From Elusimicrobiota bacterium (GTDB lineage: Bacteria > Elusimicrobiota > Elusimicrobia > UBA1565 > UBA9628): DNA of 33,132 nucleotides. The translations under genes and the position numbers were made by a program. Under the pieces are notes generated by a model. It searched no databases and had not been told where the DNA came from. It saw only the letters and a program-made list of their open reading frames with translations. Below, piece after piece: positions 12,059-29,863 of this stretch; the stretch's first letter is position 1, and each line of letters starts with the position of its first letter. The DNA is taken from positions 1 through 33,132 of the forward strand of contig JACRDS010000109.1 of assembly GCA_016212825.1 (NCBI GenBank), written 5' to 3'.

Positions 12059-12246
12059 CAGTTGTTGTTGCCGTTGCCGTCAGCCCCGGCGGCGCTTGGC
12101 GCCGCCGGGAGCGGGCGCACTATTCCTCCTGCGCCCGCACCTTCATAAAGAGCCGTTGTTATTTTATGAGAGATAGACTCTCTCTCCCGCCTTGCCGGCG
12201 GCACGAACTTTTGCCAGATGATGGGCACCGGTCTCTTCGTTTCCAT
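12058..12246 (-). CDS. Uncharacterized 62-aa ORF between coxC and coxD (overlaps coxD ATG as TGATG)
   Basis: METKRPVPIIWQKFVPPARRERESISHKITTALYEGAGAGGIVRPLPAAPSAAGADGNGNNN*; starts 10 nt after the coxC stop and its stop overlaps the coxD start; no TM segment; C-term half is low-complexity and lies on two hairpins. Confidence 0.4.
   Translation of the reverse strand: METKRPVPIIWQKFVPPARRERESISHKITTALYEGAGAGGIVRPLPAAPSAAGADGNGNNN
12085..12109. other. Perfect 11-bp stem hairpin (CCCGGCGGCGC-TTG-GCGCCGCCGGG)
   Basis: Read directly; lies between coxC and coxD. Confidence 0.85.
12111..12138. other. 9-bp stem hairpin whose loop on the minus strand presents GGAGGAATAG (SD-like)
   Basis: Minus-strand GCGGGCGCA-GGAGGAATAG-TGCGCCCGC. 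Confidence 0.8.
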
Positions 12247-12255
12247 TGTTTTGTC

Positions 12256-14444: not shown

Positions 14445-15241
14445 GTCTTCTTCCTGTCCCAGAACACGGCCAAGAACACCGTGAGCAGGACCATCAGCAC
14501 GCTGAAGGCTCCCACCAGCCGGGTGACGCTGACGATGTAGCGCCGGCCGGCCGAGTCATAAGTGTAGCAGAAGGCGAGGGACTTGATGACGGAGGGACGG
14601 GTCTGCTCGCGCACGGCCTCGTCGAGCGCGGTCTGCAGGTCCACGGGCGGGAAGCTCGTGCCGTACATGTAGCGGGTGAGCAGGCCGTGGGGCGAGATGA
14701 TGAAGATGACGCCGGCGTGGATGAACTCCGCGCCGTAGGGCTTGAACTGGAAGCCCACCGCGTCGGTGAGGACCTTGATTTCCGGGGCCTGGCCGGTGAG
14801 GAAGCGCCAAGCCGCGGGCGGGAAGGGGCGCTGGAGTTGCCTGAGATAGTTCTGACGCTTCTTCTTGGCCATCTCGGGGATGTCGCGCTCGTCGAAGCTG
14901 ACCGTGACGACCTGGAAGTCCTTGGCCGGCTCGAGCTTGAGCTCGTTGAGAGCATCCACCAGGCCGTTCAAAAGCGGCGTGCAGATGCCGGCGCAGCGGT
15001 AGTAGTTGAGGGTGAGGATGGTGGGCTTATCGATGAGCCTGCCCAGCGTGACGGTCCTGCCCTCCTCGTCCTTGAAGCGCACCTCGAGCGGGAGCGTGGC
15101 GCCCAGGTGCTCGTCCACCCCGACCTCGGGCCGGTCTGCCGCCGGCGCGGCGCGGCCTGCCGCGGCGAAGGCCAGAGCCAAGACGATCGAGACGATCAGC
15201 AACGGTGTCAGGCCTTTACTTATCGTCCGTTTGCCCGTCAA
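14441..15241 (-). CDS. SCO1/SenC copper chaperone family protein
   Basis: 266 aa; PTILTLNYYRCAGICTPLLNGLVDAL (CxxxC), VTVSFDERDIPEMAKKKRQNYL, FIHAGVIFIISPHGLLTRYMYG; C-term TM; overlaps coxA by 4 nt. Confidence 0.92.
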   Translation of the reverse strand: MTGKRTISKGLTPLLIVSIVLALAFAAAGRAAPAADRPEVGVDEHLGATLPLEVRFKDEEGRTVTLGRLIDKPTILTLNYYRCAGICTPLLNGLVDALNELKLEPAKDFQVVTVSFDERDIPEMAKKKRQNYLRQLQRPFPPAAWRFLTGQAPEIKVLTDAVGFQFKPYGAEFIHAGVIFIISPHGLLTRYMYGTSFPPVDLQTALDEAVREQTRPSVIKSLAFCYTYDSAGRRYIVSVTRLVGAFSVLMVLLTVFLAVFWDRKKT

Positions 15242-16122
15242 AATGTCCTCCGGACTTCAGAAAACAAGGACCCCCACTCAGCCGGACTCAGCCCGGCGGA
15301 CTCCACGGCGAACCCATTGCCCGGGGCCTGGGCCATAACCGCCTCGGCCAGGGCCTTGGGTCCCCCCCGCCATGCGGTCGAGTTCCTGAGCCAAACGGCC
15401 GCGCGCTCCGGGTCCGTTACGACCCGGGCTGTCACGCCGGAGAAGACCAAGGGCTTGGGCGCCGAGTACTCCTCGACCAGCTTCTTCATGGCCAGGCTCA
15501 CCGGGATCTTGTTGGACACCACCTCGCCGGCCGAGGCGAAGGTCTTGGCCAAGGCAGCCAGCGCCGCCGCATCCTCGGGCGGCCTCTGGAACATGGCCTT
15601 GGACTGCACGAAATGCGCCAAGGCCATGCGGTCCTTGGCCCGGATAAAATCGAAAGCCGCCATGCCCCCGCCCGGGATGCCGCCGGCCAATGTCTTGAAG
15701 ATGCCGACCAAGCCGGAGCCGTTCTTCCAGCCGGCCGCCTGCGAGAAATTCCGCGGCCGGGGATCCATGGTCAGGGCCGACGCCCCATCGCCCAAACCGT
15801 CGGGCCCATGGCATTGCACGCAGTTCTTGGCGTAGAGCTCCTGCCCCCGCTGCACCAGCTCCGGCGAAGCGGTCAGCACGGTCTTCGGGTCCACCGGAGG
15901 CACCACATAACCCCTGACCGCCGGATACTCGGTCGGGTCCAGCCAGCCCGTGGCGCCCTGTTGCGGGATGTCGGCGCCGGAGGGCGGCCGATTGGCGATG
16001 CGCAGGCTCGGCACCACGATGAACTCGAACAAGGCCACGACGCAGAGCCCCACCAGCACGGTCATGAACACCGTGCCCAGGCGCTTGAGCTCCTCAGGGC
16101 TCGCGTAGTCTTCAATCCTCAT
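15238..16122 (-). CDS. Membrane-anchored monoheme cytochrome c (ActE-like, accessory)
   Basis: 294 aa; N-term TM TVFMTVLVGLCVVALFEFIVVPSL, one heme site CVQCHG, C-terminal half with no second CxxCH; 4-nt overlap with SCO gene. Confidence 0.85.
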   Translation of the reverse strand: MRIEDYASPEELKRLGTVFMTVLVGLCVVALFEFIVVPSLRIANRPPSGADIPQQGATGWLDPTEYPAVRGYVVPPVDPKTVLTASPELVQRGQELYAKNCVQCHGPDGLGDGASALTMDPRPRNFSQAAGWKNGSGLVGIFKTLAGGIPGGGMAAFDFIRAKDRMALAHFVQSKAMFQRPPEDAAALAALAKTFASAGEVVSNKIPVSLAMKKLVEEYSAPKPLVFSGVTARVVTDPERAAVWLRNSTAWRGGPKALAEAVMAQAPGNGFAVESAGLSPAEWGSLFSEVRRTF

Positions 16123-16294
16123 CGTTCAACACTGTACGTACAGAGTCGGTGGATAACTTCGGCCGCCTTCTCAACTTGGTGCGCACCAAGTTCATGGGAG
16201 CCTCCCGCCACCCCTACCCGACTCGGTCCAGACCGAGTTTGTGGATAACTCCGCGAAAAACGTGAAATATGTGAAAACCAGGCACCGTCATCCG
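16123..16294. repeat. 172-bp non-coding spacer with three palindromes, duplicated GTGGATAACT words and one dispersed-repeat copy
   Basis: CTGTACGTACAG 16132-16143; AACTTGGTGCGCACCAAGTT 16173-16192; ACTCGGTC-CA-GACCGAGT 16221-16238; GTGGATAACT at 16149-16158 and 16241-16250; GTGAAAACCAGGCACC 16271-16286. Confidence 0.75.
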
Positions 16295-17416
16295 TCATAG
16301 CTTGAAAGCTAGGCCTTCCTCCAGAAACGGATCGCCGACCGGCATGTCCGCGCCCTGCTTCATGGAACGCCGCACCCAAAGCAGAGCCGCGCCGATGAAG
16401 AAGGCGGCGAACCCCAGCTCGGGCCATGAGAACAAGGGCCTCTCGCCCAGCACCGGGAAGACCAGCCAATACAGGTCGAGGAAGTGCGCACCCAGCACCA
16501 GCACCGCCACCCAGCGCAGGCGGTCCAGGTCGCCCTTCGCGTCGCGCGGCACCAAAGCGAAGAACGGGATGACGAAATGCGTCACGGCCAGGGCCAAGGA
16601 CACCCAGCGCCAGGCCCCGTGCCCGCGGTGCGCGTACCAGAACACCTCCTCGGGCAGGTCCGCGTACCACATCAGCATGTACTGCGCGAAGGCGATGTAC
16701 GACCAGAACACCGTGAAAGCGAAAAGCCAGCCGCCCAGGCTGTAGACATGGTCGAAGCGCAGCTCAGCCAGGCGCCCCCGCCCCTTGAGGTGGCAGACCG
16801 CCAAGGCCACCGCGGCCAAACCCGCCAGGAAGCTCCCCGCGAAGAGATAGACCCCCATCACGTCGCTGTACCACTCCGGCTCCAGGCTCGAGACCCAGTC
16901 GAAGGACACCACCAAGGTGGTCAGGCCCATCACGGCCATGAAGAAAGGGGCGAAACGCCGCATGCGCACGCTCAAGGCCGCGTCGCAGGAAAGGTCCTGT
17001 TCCGCGGAGCTGCCAGCCAAGACCCGCCAGGAGAGCAGCCAGAGCGCGACGCAGGCCAGGACGCGGACGCTGAAGAACGGGATGTTGAGCCAGGCCGCCT
17101 TGCCCGCGATGGCCGGGATATGCGCGGCCTCAGGCCTAGCCCAGGGATAGAGGACCTTCAGGGAGAAGAGCGCGGTGGCGAGGGCGGCGCAGGCTGGCAC
17201 CAAGAGGCCGGAGACCCGCTCCGCCGTGCGGCGCAGCGGCACGCTCCAGCGCGCGTCGCAGAGATGCTCCAGGGCCACCAAGAAGAGCGCGCCCAGGCCG
17301 ACGCTCAGGAGCATCAGGGACCAGACCAGCCAGTTAGCCCAGAAGCGCTCCGGCCCGATGGCGAAGAAAGTCCCGGCCGCGGCCAGGCCCCCGAGCACGG
17401 TCATCAGGGATATCAT
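16295..17416 (-). CDS. actF: Alternative complex III integral membrane subunit ActF
   Basis: 373 aa; ~10 TM helices; GPERFWANWLVWSLMLLSVGLGALFLVALEHLCDARWSVPLRRTAE, MGVYLFAGSFLAGLA, W-SYIAFAQYMLMWYADLPEEVFWY as in ActF family; position in act operon. Confidence 0.92.
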   Translation of the reverse strand: MISLMTVLGGLAAAGTFFAIGPERFWANWLVWSLMLLSVGLGALFLVALEHLCDARWSVPLRRTAERVSGLLVPACAALATALFSLKVLYPWARPEAAHIPAIAGKAAWLNIPFFSVRVLACVALWLLSWRVLAGSSAEQDLSCDAALSVRMRRFAPFFMAVMGLTTLVVSFDWVSSLEPEWYSDVMGVYLFAGSFLAGLAAVALAVCHLKGRGRLAELRFDHVYSLGGWLFAFTVFWSYIAFAQYMLMWYADLPEEVFWYAHRGHGAWRWVSLALAVTHFVIPFFALVPRDAKGDLDRLRWVAVLVLGAHFLDLYWLVFPVLGERPLFSWPELGFAAFFIGAALLWVRRSMKQGADMPVGDPFLEEGLAFKL

Positions 17417-18540
17417 AGGTCGGAGTCCTTGGCGTGCTGGGCTCTCTGCAGAGCGCGCAGATAATGGATCACGGCCCAGCGTTCGTCCTCGGTGAAGCCG
17501 TCGCCCAGGCGGGGCATGGCGTTCTTGCCCCTCATGATGGTGTGGTAGATCTCCCCCTCCGGATAGTCCAGGAATTTCTTGGACTGCAGGTTCGCCGGCT
17601 TGCCCCCGTAAGCCGCGGTCAGGATCGGATTGCCGTCGGCCAAAGGCCCATGGCAGATGAGGCAGTTGTTGGAGAAGACCTTCTTGCCCAGCCTCAGCAC
17701 CTCTTCGGTCCTGGGCAATGGATTGGCCAGGCCCCTAGCCTGGTCGTCCTTATCGAAAGGATAGGGCAGCCCCCCCCGCGCCACCGCGCCCTCGGCCGGC
17801 GTCCGCATGCCGCGGCTGTCCCTGAAGAACCGGCTCGGCATCTGGGCGTCGAGCCTGGGCTGTGCCAGCATGTGCGACATGGGAGGCAGCGTCGGGAAGA
17901 GCTTGATGCCCCAATACATGAACGCACCCGCCAGCACGCAGGCCGCGGCGCCGGCCGCCGCCAGACCGAGCAGAGCGTTGATGGACACGAGCCTCGCGGA
18001 GGCCGGCTCAGGGATGGTCTCCACCGACGCCGCTCCCGCCGCCTTGAGCGCGGCCGAGACCGCGGCCGCGTCCAGCAGGCCGGCTTCAGCCTCCACAGCC
18101 AGAGCGAAGCGGTCCCGGGTCGCAACCTTGGACGCCTCCGAATCCAGGAAGGGGTGCCAGAAGGCCGGCAGCTTGTTGAGCAGGAGCAGCATGCCCAGCC
18201 CGGCCGTGAAGGTCGCGAAGAGCACCGTCACCTCGAACATGATGGGCACGAAAGCCTGCCAGGACGAAGGGTCCTTGCCGCCCGTGACCAAGGGATAGTC
18301 CACCGCGTTCATCCAGTACTGGAAGAGCAAGGCCGTGAGCGTGCCCAGCACTCCCATGACCATGACCATGCCGCCCAACGGCGAGCGGCGCAGGCCCATG
18401 GCCTCCTCCAGGCCGTGGACAGGGTAAGGGGTGTAGGCCTCCAGACGGCCCAAGGCCTTGGCCTTGAGTCTGGGCACCGCAGCCAGCAGGGCATCCGGGG
18501 TCTCGAAGAGGCCCAGCACGCTGAAGACCCGCTCAGCCAT
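17413..18540 (-). CDS. actDE: Fused ActD (two-TM) - ActE (monoheme cytochrome c) subunit of alternative complex III
   Basis: Start ATG at 18540 (MAERVFSVLGLFETPDALLAAVPRLKAKALGRLEAYTPYPVHGLEEAMGL = ActD/DUF3341-like); C-term CLICHG cytochrome c domain with MPRLGDGFTEDERWAVIHYLRAL; ORF-track start 18696 overlaps actC. Confidence 0.92.
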   Translation of the reverse strand: MAERVFSVLGLFETPDALLAAVPRLKAKALGRLEAYTPYPVHGLEEAMGLRRSPLGGMVMVMGVLGTLTALLFQYWMNAVDYPLVTGGKDPSSWQAFVPIMFEVTVLFATFTAGLGMLLLLNKLPAFWHPFLDSEASKVATRDRFALAVEAEAGLLDAAAVSAALKAAGAASVETIPEPASARLVSINALLGLAAAGAAACVLAGAFMYWGIKLFPTLPPMSHMLAQPRLDAQMPSRFFRDSRGMRTPAEGAVARGGLPYPFDKDDQARGLANPLPRTEEVLRLGKKVFSNNCLICHGPLADGNPILTAAYGGKPANLQSKKFLDYPEGEIYHTIMRGKNAMPRLGDGFTEDERWAVIHYLRALQRAQHAKDSDL

Positions 18541-19900
18541 GGGTGACCCCCTCGGGCTGGGCGCCGGGCAAGGTCGCCTTGACCTCGGTGGTGGCCACCA
18601 CGGGCAGGACGCGCGCGAAGAGCAGGACCAACGTGAAGAAGAAGCCGAAGGAGCCCAGCAGGATGCCGATGTCCACCATCGTGGGCTTATACACATGCCA
18701 GGCCGAGGGCAGGAAGTCGTGATGCAGCGAGATCACGATGATGACGAAGCGCTCGAACCACATGCCCGCGGTCACGCACAGCGCCACGCCTATCATGGCC
18801 GGGATGCTGCGGCGCACGCGCTGCGACCACAGGACCTGGGGCACGGCCACGTTGCAGACGACGGCCAGCCAACCGGCCCAGCCGTAGGTCCCGGTCACGT
18901 ACTGCAGGAAGGTGTGGTGGATGTAGGGGTTCATGCTGTACCAGGCCGTAAAGGCCTCGCACAGGTACGAATAGCCCATCAGGCAGGAGCAGCCCAGGAT
19001 CACCTTGTTGCACAGCTCCAGGTGGCGCATGGTGATGAGGTTCTCGATGCCCATGAGCCGCCGCACGTTGGAGAGCACCAGAACCACCATGGCGAAGCCC
19101 GCGAAGATGGCGCCGACCACGAAATAGGGCGGGAAGATGGTCATGTGCCAGCCCGGAACCAAGGAGGTCGCGAAGTCGAAGGACACCACGCTGTGCACGG
19201 AGAGCACCAGGCCCGTGGCCAAGCCGGCCAGGATCACATAGGCCTTCTCGTAGTGGCGCCACTGCTCGGGCGTGCCGCGCCAGCCCAGGCTCAGCACCGT
19301 GTAGGCGATCTGGCGCAGGCGGGTCTTGGCCCGGCCGCGCAAAGAGGCCAGGTCCGGCAGCAGGCCGATGTACCAGAACAGCAAGGACACCGCGAAGTAG
19401 GTCGAGACCGCGAACACGTCCCACATCAAAGGCGAACGGAAGTTCGGCCAGAGCCCCCTCTGGTTGGGATACGGGAAGAGCCAGAAGTCCAGCCAAGGGC
19501 GGCCCACGTGGATGGCAGGGAAGATGCCGGCGGTCATCACGGCGAATATGGTCATGGCCTCGGCGTAGCGCGCGATGGCGTTGCGCCAGCGCGCGCGGAA
19601 CAGGAGCAGGATGGCCGAAATCAAGGTGCCGGCGTGGCCGATGCCGATCCAGAACACGAAGTTGATGATGTCGAAGGCCCAGCCCACGGGTCGGTTGTTG
19701 CCCCAGACCCCGATGCCCTCGTAGACGGTGTAGCCGATCAAGGCGAAGCCCAGGCACATCACCGAGGCCGTGAAGGCGAAAGCCAGGAACCAGGCCCGGG
19801 GCGGCCGGCGCTCCGGATAGGAGAGGACCTGCTCGTCGAGAGCCGCGGCCGTCAGCGGCCCCGCGATCAGCGGCTCCCGGCGCAGGACCTCAGGAAGCAT
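18533..19900 (-). CDS. actC: Alternative complex III subunit ActC (NrfD/PsrC family quinone-interacting membrane protein)
   Basis: 455 aa; ~10 TM helices; GVWGNNRPVGWAFDIINFVFWIGIGHAGTLISAILLLFRARWRNAIARYAEAMTIFAV. Confidence 0.95.
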   Translation of the reverse strand: MLPEVLRREPLIAGPLTAAALDEQVLSYPERRPPRAWFLAFAFTASVMCLGFALIGYTVYEGIGVWGNNRPVGWAFDIINFVFWIGIGHAGTLISAILLLFRARWRNAIARYAEAMTIFAVMTAGIFPAIHVGRPWLDFWLFPYPNQRGLWPNFRSPLMWDVFAVSTYFAVSLLFWYIGLLPDLASLRGRAKTRLRQIAYTVLSLGWRGTPEQWRHYEKAYVILAGLATGLVLSVHSVVSFDFATSLVPGWHMTIFPPYFVVGAIFAGFAMVVLVLSNVRRLMGIENLITMRHLELCNKVILGCSCLMGYSYLCEAFTAWYSMNPYIHHTFLQYVTGTYGWAGWLAVVCNVAVPQVLWSQRVRRSIPAMIGVALCVTAGMWFERFVIIVISLHHDFLPSAWHVYKPTMVDIGILLGSFGFFFTLVLLFARVLPVVATTEVKATLPGAQPEGVTHG

Positions 19901-22766
19901 CGCGGTCTCCCGCCGGGTTGCTCAGGTCCGCGAGGTAGGTCACCGACGGCTTGACCCCCAGCTCCTCGAGCACCCGGTAGCCCCGGCCGCGGGCCGCCAG
20001 CCGGGAGACCCGGCTGGCCGGGTCCTTGAGGTCCCCGAAGACGATGGCTCCGGCCGGGCAGGCCGCGGCGCAGGCCGGCTCGATGTCCCCGTCGCGCAGG
20101 GCGCGGCCCGCGGACCTGGCGGCGGCCTTGGCCTCCTGGATGCGCTGCACGCAGAAGGTGCACTTCTCCATGACCCCGCGCGGCCGCACCGTAACCTCCG
20201 GGTTAAAGGCCAGCCGCCGGGACTCGGGCGTCTGCGCGTTGTACTCGAAGAAGTTGAAGCGCCGCACCTTGTAGGGGCAGTTGTTGGCGCAGTAGCGCGT
20301 GCCCACGCAGCGGTTGTAGGCCATCTGGTTGAGGCCCTCGTCGCTGTGGTTGGTGGCGGCCACCGGGCAGACGGTCTCGCAGGGCGCGTCGTCGCACTGC
20401 TGGCACATCATGGGCTGCAGCAGGACCTTGGGATTCTCCGCCGGGCCCTCGTAGTAACGGTCCACGCGCAGCCAGTGCATCTCGCGGCCTTCCAGCACGC
20501 GCTCCGCGCCCACCACGGGCACGTTGTTCTCGGACTGGCAGGAGACGGCGCAGGCCTGGCAGCCCGTGCAGAGGCTCAGGTCCACGGCCATGGCCCACTT
20601 GTGCTTGGGAAATTTCCGGGGCGGGTAGAGGGTGGCCAAGTCCTTGGAATGCGTCAGGCGCGGCTGGCGGCTCTTGGCCAGAGTGATGCTGCGCGCGATG
20701 TCGCGGCCCTCCATCTTGTGATGCCTCTGGATGAAGGGCAGGGCCGTGCGGCACCCGGTCTTCTGCAACTCCGTGTCCGGGAGCAGCAGGCCGGCGGCTC
20801 CGGAGCCGGCGAGCATGGGGAAGAGGTTGACGCCCACTCCGGCGGCCACGGAGCCGGCGCGGCGGCCGTAGCCCAGGGCCGCGCCGAGCGTGCCCGGAGC
20901 CTGTCCCGGCTGCACCACCGCGGGCAACTCGACTTCCACTCCCCCGGCCGAGAGCTCGACGATGTCGCCGTCCGCCAGACCCAGGCGGACGGCGTCAGCG
21001 GGGCTCACGCAGACGGCGTTGCCCCAGGAGAGCTTGGTCACGGGGTCCGGCAGCTCCTGGAGCCAGCCGTTGTCGGCGTAGCGGCCGTCGAACACGTTGG
21101 CGCCCGGAGACAGGATCAGCTCGAAGCCGGACGCCGCCGGAGCCCCGGTCTGCCGGGCCAGCTTGGTCACGGCCGCGCCGTCGAGGCGGCGGGGCGGGCG
21201 GGAAGCGGCCTCGCGCCGGAGCGCTCCGTCGTGCAGGGCCGATGACCAGAAGCGCTCGAAAGGGAGCAGCGACGAGGCGGGCTGGACTTCCCTGCGCCAG
21301 CGCTCCATGAGGTAGCTCCGGTAATCCAGGGGAGCGCCGCCGCCCAGGCCGCGCAGAAGGTCCAGCAGCACGTCATCGCCCTGCCTGGTGTCGTACAACG
21401 GCGCGACCGCGGGCTGCTGGAGCAAGAGCAGGTCCGAGGACGGCTCGAAGTCGTTCCAGGACTCCAGCCAGTGATGCTCGGGCAGGACGATGTCGCAGGC
21501 CCGCGCGGTCTCGTCCAGAGTGCGTCCGATGCGCGCCTTCAACGGAATGGCCGCGGCGGAGGAGTCCCAGAGCGCGGCGTCCGGGAAAGCGTAGGCCGGG
21601 TTCACCCCCCAGAAGACGGCGGCGGCGAAGCGTCCCTGAGCCGCCTCCAGAAGGAAGCGCGAGCTCTCCTCGTCCCCGGCCAGTTCCTCGGCGGGCGGGG
21701 AGATGGACGCGTCCACGGTGCTCCCCTCGGCGCCGAGCATGGTGTTGAGCAGGAAGGCTGCGGCATGCGCCTGCGGGGGCAGGGCCGGCCCCGCGACGAC
21801 CAAAGCGGAGCTGCCGGCCCTCTTGAGGTCCTCGGCCAAGGCCCGCAGCAGAGCCGGGTCCGCGCCCTGCTCCTTGGCCAGGGCTTCCAGGTCGAAGCCC
21901 GCCAGGACCGAGTCCGCCACTCCCGCGGGCAATGGACGCCCCGACTGATGCAATGCCCGCGCCAGAGCAAAGCCCAGAGCCGCGGCCCGGGAAGGCTTCC
22001 AGGGCACCCGGTGGTCGGCGTTGGCTCCGGTGAGGCTCATCCCGGCCTCGAACGCGTAGAGGCGGCTCATGGAGCCCTCGCCCCGGTTGGCCGCGAAGCC
22101 CTTTATCTCCTCCGGCCGGTCTCCGGAAAGCAGTTCAACCTCCAAGGCCAGCATCACCTTGGCGCGGTCCAGACGCAGGCGGGGCCGGCGCGCGTCTCCA
22201 TAGCAGGCCTTCAGGGCGGCGGCCTCGGCTCCGCCGCAGGCGGGCTCGCGGACCGCATGCTTCAGCCCCGGCAAGGCCTTTCCTAAAGCCGCGACCAGCG
22301 CCCGCCGCGTGGGCGAGAGCAAAGCGTTGGTCATGAGCAGCACGGGCCGTCGCTCGGCGCGGGCGCCGAGGAGGTCGGAGAGGAGCCGACCGCGGGCCTG
22401 GTCCCAGGACGCCGGACGGCCCTTGACGAGCGGCCGGCGCAGCCGGCCCGGGTCGTAGAGGCCCATGATGTCGGCCATGGCGCGCAAAGAGGTCTTGCCC
22501 GCGCAGGACGGATGCTTGTCGTTTCCCTGCACGTGGATGGGCCGGCCCTCGCGGGTCTTGACCAGCACGCCGTAGGCGCTCAGCCCTTCCTGGAAGGCGC
22601 TGGCGTAGAGGTCGGCGTTCCCGGGCCGCGCCCCGGCCGGCCTCTTGTCGAAGGGCACGATCTCCCCGCGGTCCGGCCGCGAGCAGCCCGCGGCCAGGGC
22701 GGCGGAGGCGCCCAGCACGCCGAGGAACTCCCGGCGCGAGAGGTCGGGCTCGATAGGCTCAGCCAT
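19890..22766 (-). CDS. actB: Alternative complex III subunit ActB (molybdopterin-oxidoreductase-like + [Fe-S] domain fusion, Tat signal)
   Basis: 958 aa; Tat motif SRREFLGVLGASAALAAGC; C-terminal ferredoxin-like cysteines CTGCQACAVSCQSEN, CQQCDDAPCETVCP, CVGTRYCANNCPYKVRRFNFFEYN, CTFCVQRI, CAAACPAGAI. Confidence 0.95.
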   Translation of the reverse strand: MAEPIEPDLSRREFLGVLGASAALAAGCSRPDRGEIVPFDKRPAGARPGNADLYASAFQEGLSAYGVLVKTREGRPIHVQGNDKHPSCAGKTSLRAMADIMGLYDPGRLRRPLVKGRPASWDQARGRLLSDLLGARAERRPVLLMTNALLSPTRRALVAALGKALPGLKHAVREPACGGAEAAALKACYGDARRPRLRLDRAKVMLALEVELLSGDRPEEIKGFAANRGEGSMSRLYAFEAGMSLTGANADHRVPWKPSRAAALGFALARALHQSGRPLPAGVADSVLAGFDLEALAKEQGADPALLRALAEDLKRAGSSALVVAGPALPPQAHAAAFLLNTMLGAEGSTVDASISPPAEELAGDEESSRFLLEAAQGRFAAAVFWGVNPAYAFPDAALWDSSAAAIPLKARIGRTLDETARACDIVLPEHHWLESWNDFEPSSDLLLLQQPAVAPLYDTRQGDDVLLDLLRGLGGGAPLDYRSYLMERWRREVQPASSLLPFERFWSSALHDGALRREAASRPPRRLDGAAVTKLARQTGAPAASGFELILSPGANVFDGRYADNGWLQELPDPVTKLSWGNAVCVSPADAVRLGLADGDIVELSAGGVEVELPAVVQPGQAPGTLGAALGYGRRAGSVAAGVGVNLFPMLAGSGAAGLLLPDTELQKTGCRTALPFIQRHHKMEGRDIARSITLAKSRQPRLTHSKDLATLYPPRKFPKHKWAMAVDLSLCTGCQACAVSCQSENNVPVVGAERVLEGREMHWLRVDRYYEGPAENPKVLLQPMMCQQCDDAPCETVCPVAATNHSDEGLNQMAYNRCVGTRYCANNCPYKVRRFNFFEYNAQTPESRRLAFNPEVTVRPRGVMEKCTFCVQRIQEAKAAARSAGRALRDGDIEPACAAACPAGAIVFGDLKDPASRVSRLAARGRGYRVLEELGVKPSVTYLADLSNPAGDRDAS

Positions 22767-29787: not shown

Positions 29788-29863
29788 TCCCGCCAAATCG
29801 TGAAATCGTGAAAACCAGGTACCAAAAGGTCAAAAGGTGAAAACCAGGCACCAAGAGGCGGGA
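29788..29863. repeat. Two tandem copies of GTGAAAACCAGGYACC flanked by TCCCGCC...GGCGGGA inverted repeat
   Basis: GTGAAAACCAGGTACC 29808-29823; GTGAAAACCAGGCACC 29837-29852; TCCCGCC 29788-29794 and GGCGGGA 29857-29863. Confidence 0.8.

Follow-up and report, generated by a model that had tools for sequence, protein, structure and literature searches.

Background

Modular or very short palindromic elements are found between genes in several systems, including the BOX elements of pneumococcus and the GC clusters and PstI palindromes of fungal mitochondria; to our knowledge, none of these has an HNH partner. In the REP/RAYT and REPIN/BIME systems, the enzyme is a Y1 transposase (RAYT). The palindromes of these systems are short and dispersed in intergenic regions, the enzyme gene is flanked by the same palindrome, and the sequences are lineage-specific, with complementary changes and clustering into mosaics (PMC2817692).

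Two further systems involve HNH proteins. The mycobacterial REP13E12 (or 13E12) loci, which encode DUF222-HNH proteins, are repeated and are hot spots of gene conversion (PMC13061034); according to a published statement, these best-known DUF222-HNH repeats lack a defined function. In the case of free-standing HNH homing endonucleases, the gene is bordered by its presumed target and copying by repair is expected, as in phage examples (PMC12724721). No earlier description of HNH genes paired with palindromic repeats was found in the open-licence literature, and the REP surveys consulted do not mention HNH.

Composition of the actF-cytochrome c spacer

The stretch of DNA analysed here (the window, 33,132 nucleotides) corresponds to contig C61 in a draft genome of 3.56 Mb (G000). 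On its minus strand, an alternative complex III cluster (ActB-like, NrfD, ActD-cytochrome c and ActF-like) is followed by cytochrome c, SCO and cox genes. The ActF-like gene (16295..17416, minus strand) has no Pfam match and is named by position. The cytochrome c gene downstream of it (15238..16122, minus strand) matches PF00034 (E 1e-11), and the nearest named relative of its product, at 71% identity, comes from an Elusimicrobia MAG (nzgw215). Elsewhere in the cluster, positions 17413-18696 encode a single protein in which ActD is fused to an ActE-like cytochrome c domain, and a tRNA-Gly called by ARAGORN at 20785-20882 on the minus strand, within the ActB-like gene (19890-22766), is probably false.

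The spacer between the ActF-like and cytochrome c genes (16123..16294) had been described as the only long one in the cluster, which is incorrect, as 197 bp (12059-12255) separate cox3 from the subunit IV gene. This other spacer carries a pair of G+C-rich inverted repeats as well as TTTATGAAG, a word that recurs next to repeats at L003, L007 and L018 and is perhaps a third dispersed family.

The repeats named in the original prediction are all present where it placed them. They include the palindromes CTGTACGTACAG (16132-16143), AACTTGGTGCGCACCAAGTT (16173-16192) and ACTCGGTCCAGACCGAGT (16221-16238), two direct repeats of GTGGATAACT 92 bp apart (16149-16158 and 16241-16250), and a copy of the dispersed motif GTGAAAACCAGGCACC (16271-16286), with more at 29808-29852. 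The 20-bp AACTTGGTGCGCACCAAGTT is the sole perfect palindrome of at least 16 bp in the window; Markov simulation gives an expectation of about 1.4 per window, so that by itself it is unremarkable. Of simulated 172-bp stretches, 0.3% contained a pair of perfect palindromes each 12 bp or longer. The palindrome density of the spacer is unusual, and the case rests on genome-wide counts.

When the spacer was used as a query against the genome, some 40 short partial matches were obtained, falling into three blocks. One is the GTGAAAACCAGGCACC block, with 11 exact copies in the genome; the second and third are palindromes followed by NNGTGGATAACT, and AGTNNGTGGATAA has 16 copies. Both counts fall to 0 for the reversed controls. 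The further copies that the original prediction had proposed to look for thus exist, and the spacer is a composite insertion of two kinds of dispersed short repeat. Read on the plus strand, these are the solo end of a RAYT element (16257..16286, with GTGAAAACCAGGCACC as its core) and, in descending coordinates, three palindrome units. Unit 1 (16221..16250, plus strand) consists of ACTCGGTCCAGACCGAGT and a GTGGATAACT cap, and matches covariance model R1 at 46.7 bits (E 7.8e-19). Unit 2 (16173..16192, no strand assigned) is internal and capless, and its palindrome is identical to one in two arrays (L138 and L156) of the related genome G006. Unit 3 (16129..16158, plus strand) consists of ACACTGTACGTACAGAGT (16129-16146) and the second GTGGATAACT cap, and matches R1 at 31 bits (E 4.8e-11). 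An inserted REP- or MITE-like element had been suggested for this spacer; insertion is borne out by the genome copies and by empty sites in relatives, whereas a single element is not, since two kinds are present.

Empty and filled sites

The empty sites are seen in G006, which belongs to the same genus, and in the more distant G028, where the actF-like and cytochrome c genes overlap by ATGA (locus L090 in G006). In G014 and G003, this junction is likewise closed up. By contrast with these empty sites, G002, a member of the same genus with a cytochrome c 74% identical to that of the window, has about 110 bp at the same junction, comprising a RAYT end of another type and then two capped palindromes, so that in G000 as in G002 the palindrome array adjoins a RAYT end. 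Given that the site is empty in G006 and the outgroups and filled in G000 and G002, the genus is the most likely place of origin of the insert. The ATGA overlap is the sole sequence doubled at the insertion, and the need for both codons would by itself be enough to preserve it; no target-site duplication was recognised beyond these 4 bp.

The G002 orthologue of unit 3 differs from it in the core, and the changes between the two are mirrored (CTGTACGTACAG versus CGGTGCGCACCG). A second orthologous site, L007 versus L219, also has mirrored core changes (CGGTCCGGACCG versus CTGCCCGGGCAG).

The RAYT end

The GTGAAAACCAGGCACC copies are dispersed between genes, and the block has an A-rich extension. 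This genome contains five Y1 transposase (RAYT) genes, of which the one on contig C186 (PF01797; L065) is bordered by GGTACCTGGTTTTCAC at 979 and GTGAAAACCAGGCACC at 1931 in inverted orientation. In this genome, GTGAAAACCAGGCACC therefore forms the terminal inverted repeats of a RAYT element, and the block in the spacer is a solo end. Two other RAYT genes (L067 and L068) have terminal inverted repeats of the form GGTGTCAGGC...GCCTGACACC, and ends of the GGTGYC/GGTACC type are found on three of the five. Outside the operon, two RAYT ends matching the spacer repeat lie in tandem at 29795..29852 on the plus strand, in the same orientation and 29 bp apart.

The capped palindrome family

Relatives show the second repeat in full, as AGTTATCCAC-NN-[18-bp palindrome]n-NN-GTGGATAACT, with one to four palindromes that are separated in the multi-unit arrays by short unrelated spacers. 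With a single palindrome, the entire capped element is itself a palindrome of about 42 bp. The AGTTATCCAC/GTGGATAACT caps constitute terminal inverted repeats, as in MITEs, and the cap-(palindrome)n-cap architecture is found in several genera. At E <= 0.05, the covariance model detects 40 matches in G000, 37 in G002 and 40 in G006, with fewer in other genera; weak matches across the class (E about 1e-3) were counted as noise.

While the caps are constant, the cores are genome-specific, as in AAACTTCCCGGGAAGTTT in G008 and ACTCGTCGCGCGACGAGT in G129. Among 26 distinct units, two-sided changes occupy 35 cells, a number reached by none of 500 shuffles, and a G-U pair occurs in only one of 182 cells. 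The four central bases are self-complementary as well (25/26 and 22/26 rows). A self-complementary centre together with two-sided changes points to a symmetry of duplex DNA, such as a dimeric protein would read, rather than that of an RNA hairpin. As for a cluster of DnaA boxes, the base that would complete the word TTATCCACA is free, being T, G or C in 11, 9 and 6 of the 26 aligned units on the cap strand.

HNH endonuclease genes

An all-against-all comparison of the reading frames around the arrays returned one conspicuous recurrent non-orthologous neighbour. This protein has an HNH domain over the curated cut-off (PF01844, E 2.9e-6, 27.7 bits versus 21.4) and a weak DUF222 match below it (E 0.0038, 17 bits versus 24.4). 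A profile built from this protein matches about 100 times, in 28 of the 38 genomes searched. Of 70 HNH loci, 12 have a cap or capped palindrome within about 150 bp, whereas copy numbers predict 0.08, or 0.8 if a factor of ten is allowed for gene avoidance; four of the 12 genes seeded the profile and had been found through the arrays, which is not the case for the other eight. Any palindrome at all occurs within 300 bp of 40 of the 70 HNH loci compared with 21 of 600 control segments, a contrast that is somewhat overstated, as the controls are not intergenic only. About 30 of the 70 loci have no recognisable palindrome nearby.

The type of palindrome follows the HNH phylogeny. On the HNH tree, the capped-type label changes twice, as against 11.3 times when shuffled (0/500 shuffles do as well). 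Different palindromes accompany the remaining HNH clades, and at L257, L280, L282 and L306 an identical palindrome stands on both sides of the gene; that of L282, GAACTCGGTCCAGGACCGAGTTC, has nearly the core of ACTCGGTCCAGACCGAGT in the window.

Solo copies were sought with a pattern built from three HNH-bordering palindromes. Identical copies number 14 in G023 and 22 in G024, and in either genome two of them flank the HNH gene; the reversed control gives 0. The pattern was built without G028, where it detects five copies, two of them next to an HNH gene. Many of the G024 copies are alike in the palindrome alone and some are at the centre of larger inverted repeats, while the majority of those in G023 lie within a longer repeated stretch. 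The pattern also caught an unrelated element in G006, which is excluded from the argument.

Two side observations concern these genomes. In G024, HNH-type palindromes at L349, L362, L366 and L367 occupy the centre of GTGCACGCTTCGCGCACGG...CCGTGCGCGAAGCGTGCAC inverted repeats, as if inserted into hairpin loops. The separate element in G006 (L344-L348 and L368) is about 160 bp long, with GGCGACCT terminal inverted repeats, ACTTTCCCCGGGGAAAGT at its centre and about seven copies.

In G000 itself, an HNH gene on contig C115 is a possible partner of the cores in the window; it ends its contig, and the DNA upstream of it is therefore outside the assembly. The non-Elusimicrobia loci compared contain no HNH of this family, and a plasmid search with the HNH protein returned only two Deinococcus TerD-HNH fragments. 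HNH genes and palindromes are associated by adjacency and by a palindrome type that follows the clade, and the palindromes themselves show dispersal and paired core changes.

Proposed mechanism and alternatives

The spacer probably consists of a RAYT end and three units of a capped palindrome family whose full form is an HNH gene bordered by the palindrome and whose spread is nuclease-driven. The capped 18-bp palindromes would then be the dispersed, gene-less form of HNH-gene elements. The HNH protein would bind its own palindrome in duplex DNA as a dimer and nick or cut there, and repair from another copy would carry palindromes to new intergenic places. Such repair would also overwrite older palindromes with the current core of the genome, so that both halves would change together. 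Recognition and cutting of the palindrome by the HNH protein, and the subsequent copying, are inferred from sequence comparison. In a broader version, to which we give slightly less than even credence, the several DUF222-like HNH paralogs of a genome each drive their own palindrome by cutting and repair copying; the arrays would be layered landing places, and the core a specificity code rewritten genome-wide whenever the nuclease changes.

The main rival, which we consider unlikely, treats the palindromes as operators. The HNH/DUF222-like protein, or else a regulator linked to it, would bind them to govern its own gene, and the dispersed copies would form a regulon, here including the cytochrome c-SCO-cox half of the operon. 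The two-fold symmetry and CG centre do resemble a dimer site, and many HNH genes have a palindrome just upstream, an adjacency that self-regulation likewise predicts. However, other HNH genes have it downstream or on both sides, and the core halves change together, unlike those of drifting operators. Nor is there a promoter bias: when genes were predicted with a simple script based on codon usage, all but one of the judged sites in three genomes proved intergenic, and the 35 classifiable sites lie between 19 co-directional, 9 divergent and 7 convergent gene pairs. The spacer itself has no terminator-like or sigma-70-like site, and it is missing in relatives with the same operon. A regulator-responsive operator, as originally suggested for the spacer, is not supported by these contexts.

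It is rather improbable that the arrays belong among the ordinary REP/BIME or MITE repeats and owe their movement to a RAYT or another transposase of the genome, with the HNH adjacency explained by intergenic repeats accumulating at hot spots. The caps resemble terminal inverted repeats, the genome has five Y1 transposases and the array adjoins a RAYT end in two genomes. Against this, the ends on three of the five RAYT genes are of the GGTGYC/GGTACC type and none of the five genes has these palindromes, the capped palindromes have no GTAG or CGTC head, the HNH clade predicts the palindrome type, and solo copies match the palindrome at the HNH gene of the same genome. As candidates for Y1-transposase elements, the capped palindromes fail at every Y1 gene of this genome: none borders any of the five, and neither GTGGATAA nor TTATCCAC is found near them.

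Two further readings raised in the original prediction, a cluster responding to DnaA and a structured site for RNA processing between the act and cox halves, are scarcely credible despite one exact TTATCCACA word and palindromes that can form hairpins. The caps occur in dozens of unrelated places and the last base of the DnaA box varies; the fold of the transcript is no more stable than those of shuffles (z -1.06), the symmetry crosses the would-be loop and Rfam has no match to the spacer.

The act-cox spacer is a landing site for repeats and should not be taken as a regulatory region. DUF222-type HNH proteins are present in multiple copies in many genomes, and the link to palindromes would give them a testable role.

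Comparison with known systems

BOX elements, GC clusters and PstI palindromes are unrelated in sequence to the capped palindromes. Free-standing homing endonucleases share with the HNH loci a gene bordered by its presumed target, but here short palindromes are spread without the gene, and the cutting is putative. The mycobacterial REP13E12 proteins are possibly related in architecture, with HNH and the weak DUF222 match seen here, and gene conversion at those loci fits, without proving, conversion of the palindromes; unlike the present HNH loci, dispersed cognate palindromes are not reported for REP13E12 in accessible papers.

The greatest likeness is to REP/RAYT, in the dispersal of short intergenic palindromes, the enzyme gene flanked by its own palindrome, the lineage-specific sequences with complementary changes and the clustered mosaics. 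However, the capped palindromes have a symmetric centre and no loop, in addition to the missing GTAG/CGTC head, and they adjoin HNH endonuclease genes instead of Y1 transposase genes; only the GTGAAAACCAGGCACC part of the spacer is RAYT-linked. We read the capped palindromes and their HNH genes as a likely HNH counterpart of the REP/RAYT system, a link that would mean REP-like repeats can also arise by another route, through an unrelated kind of enzyme.
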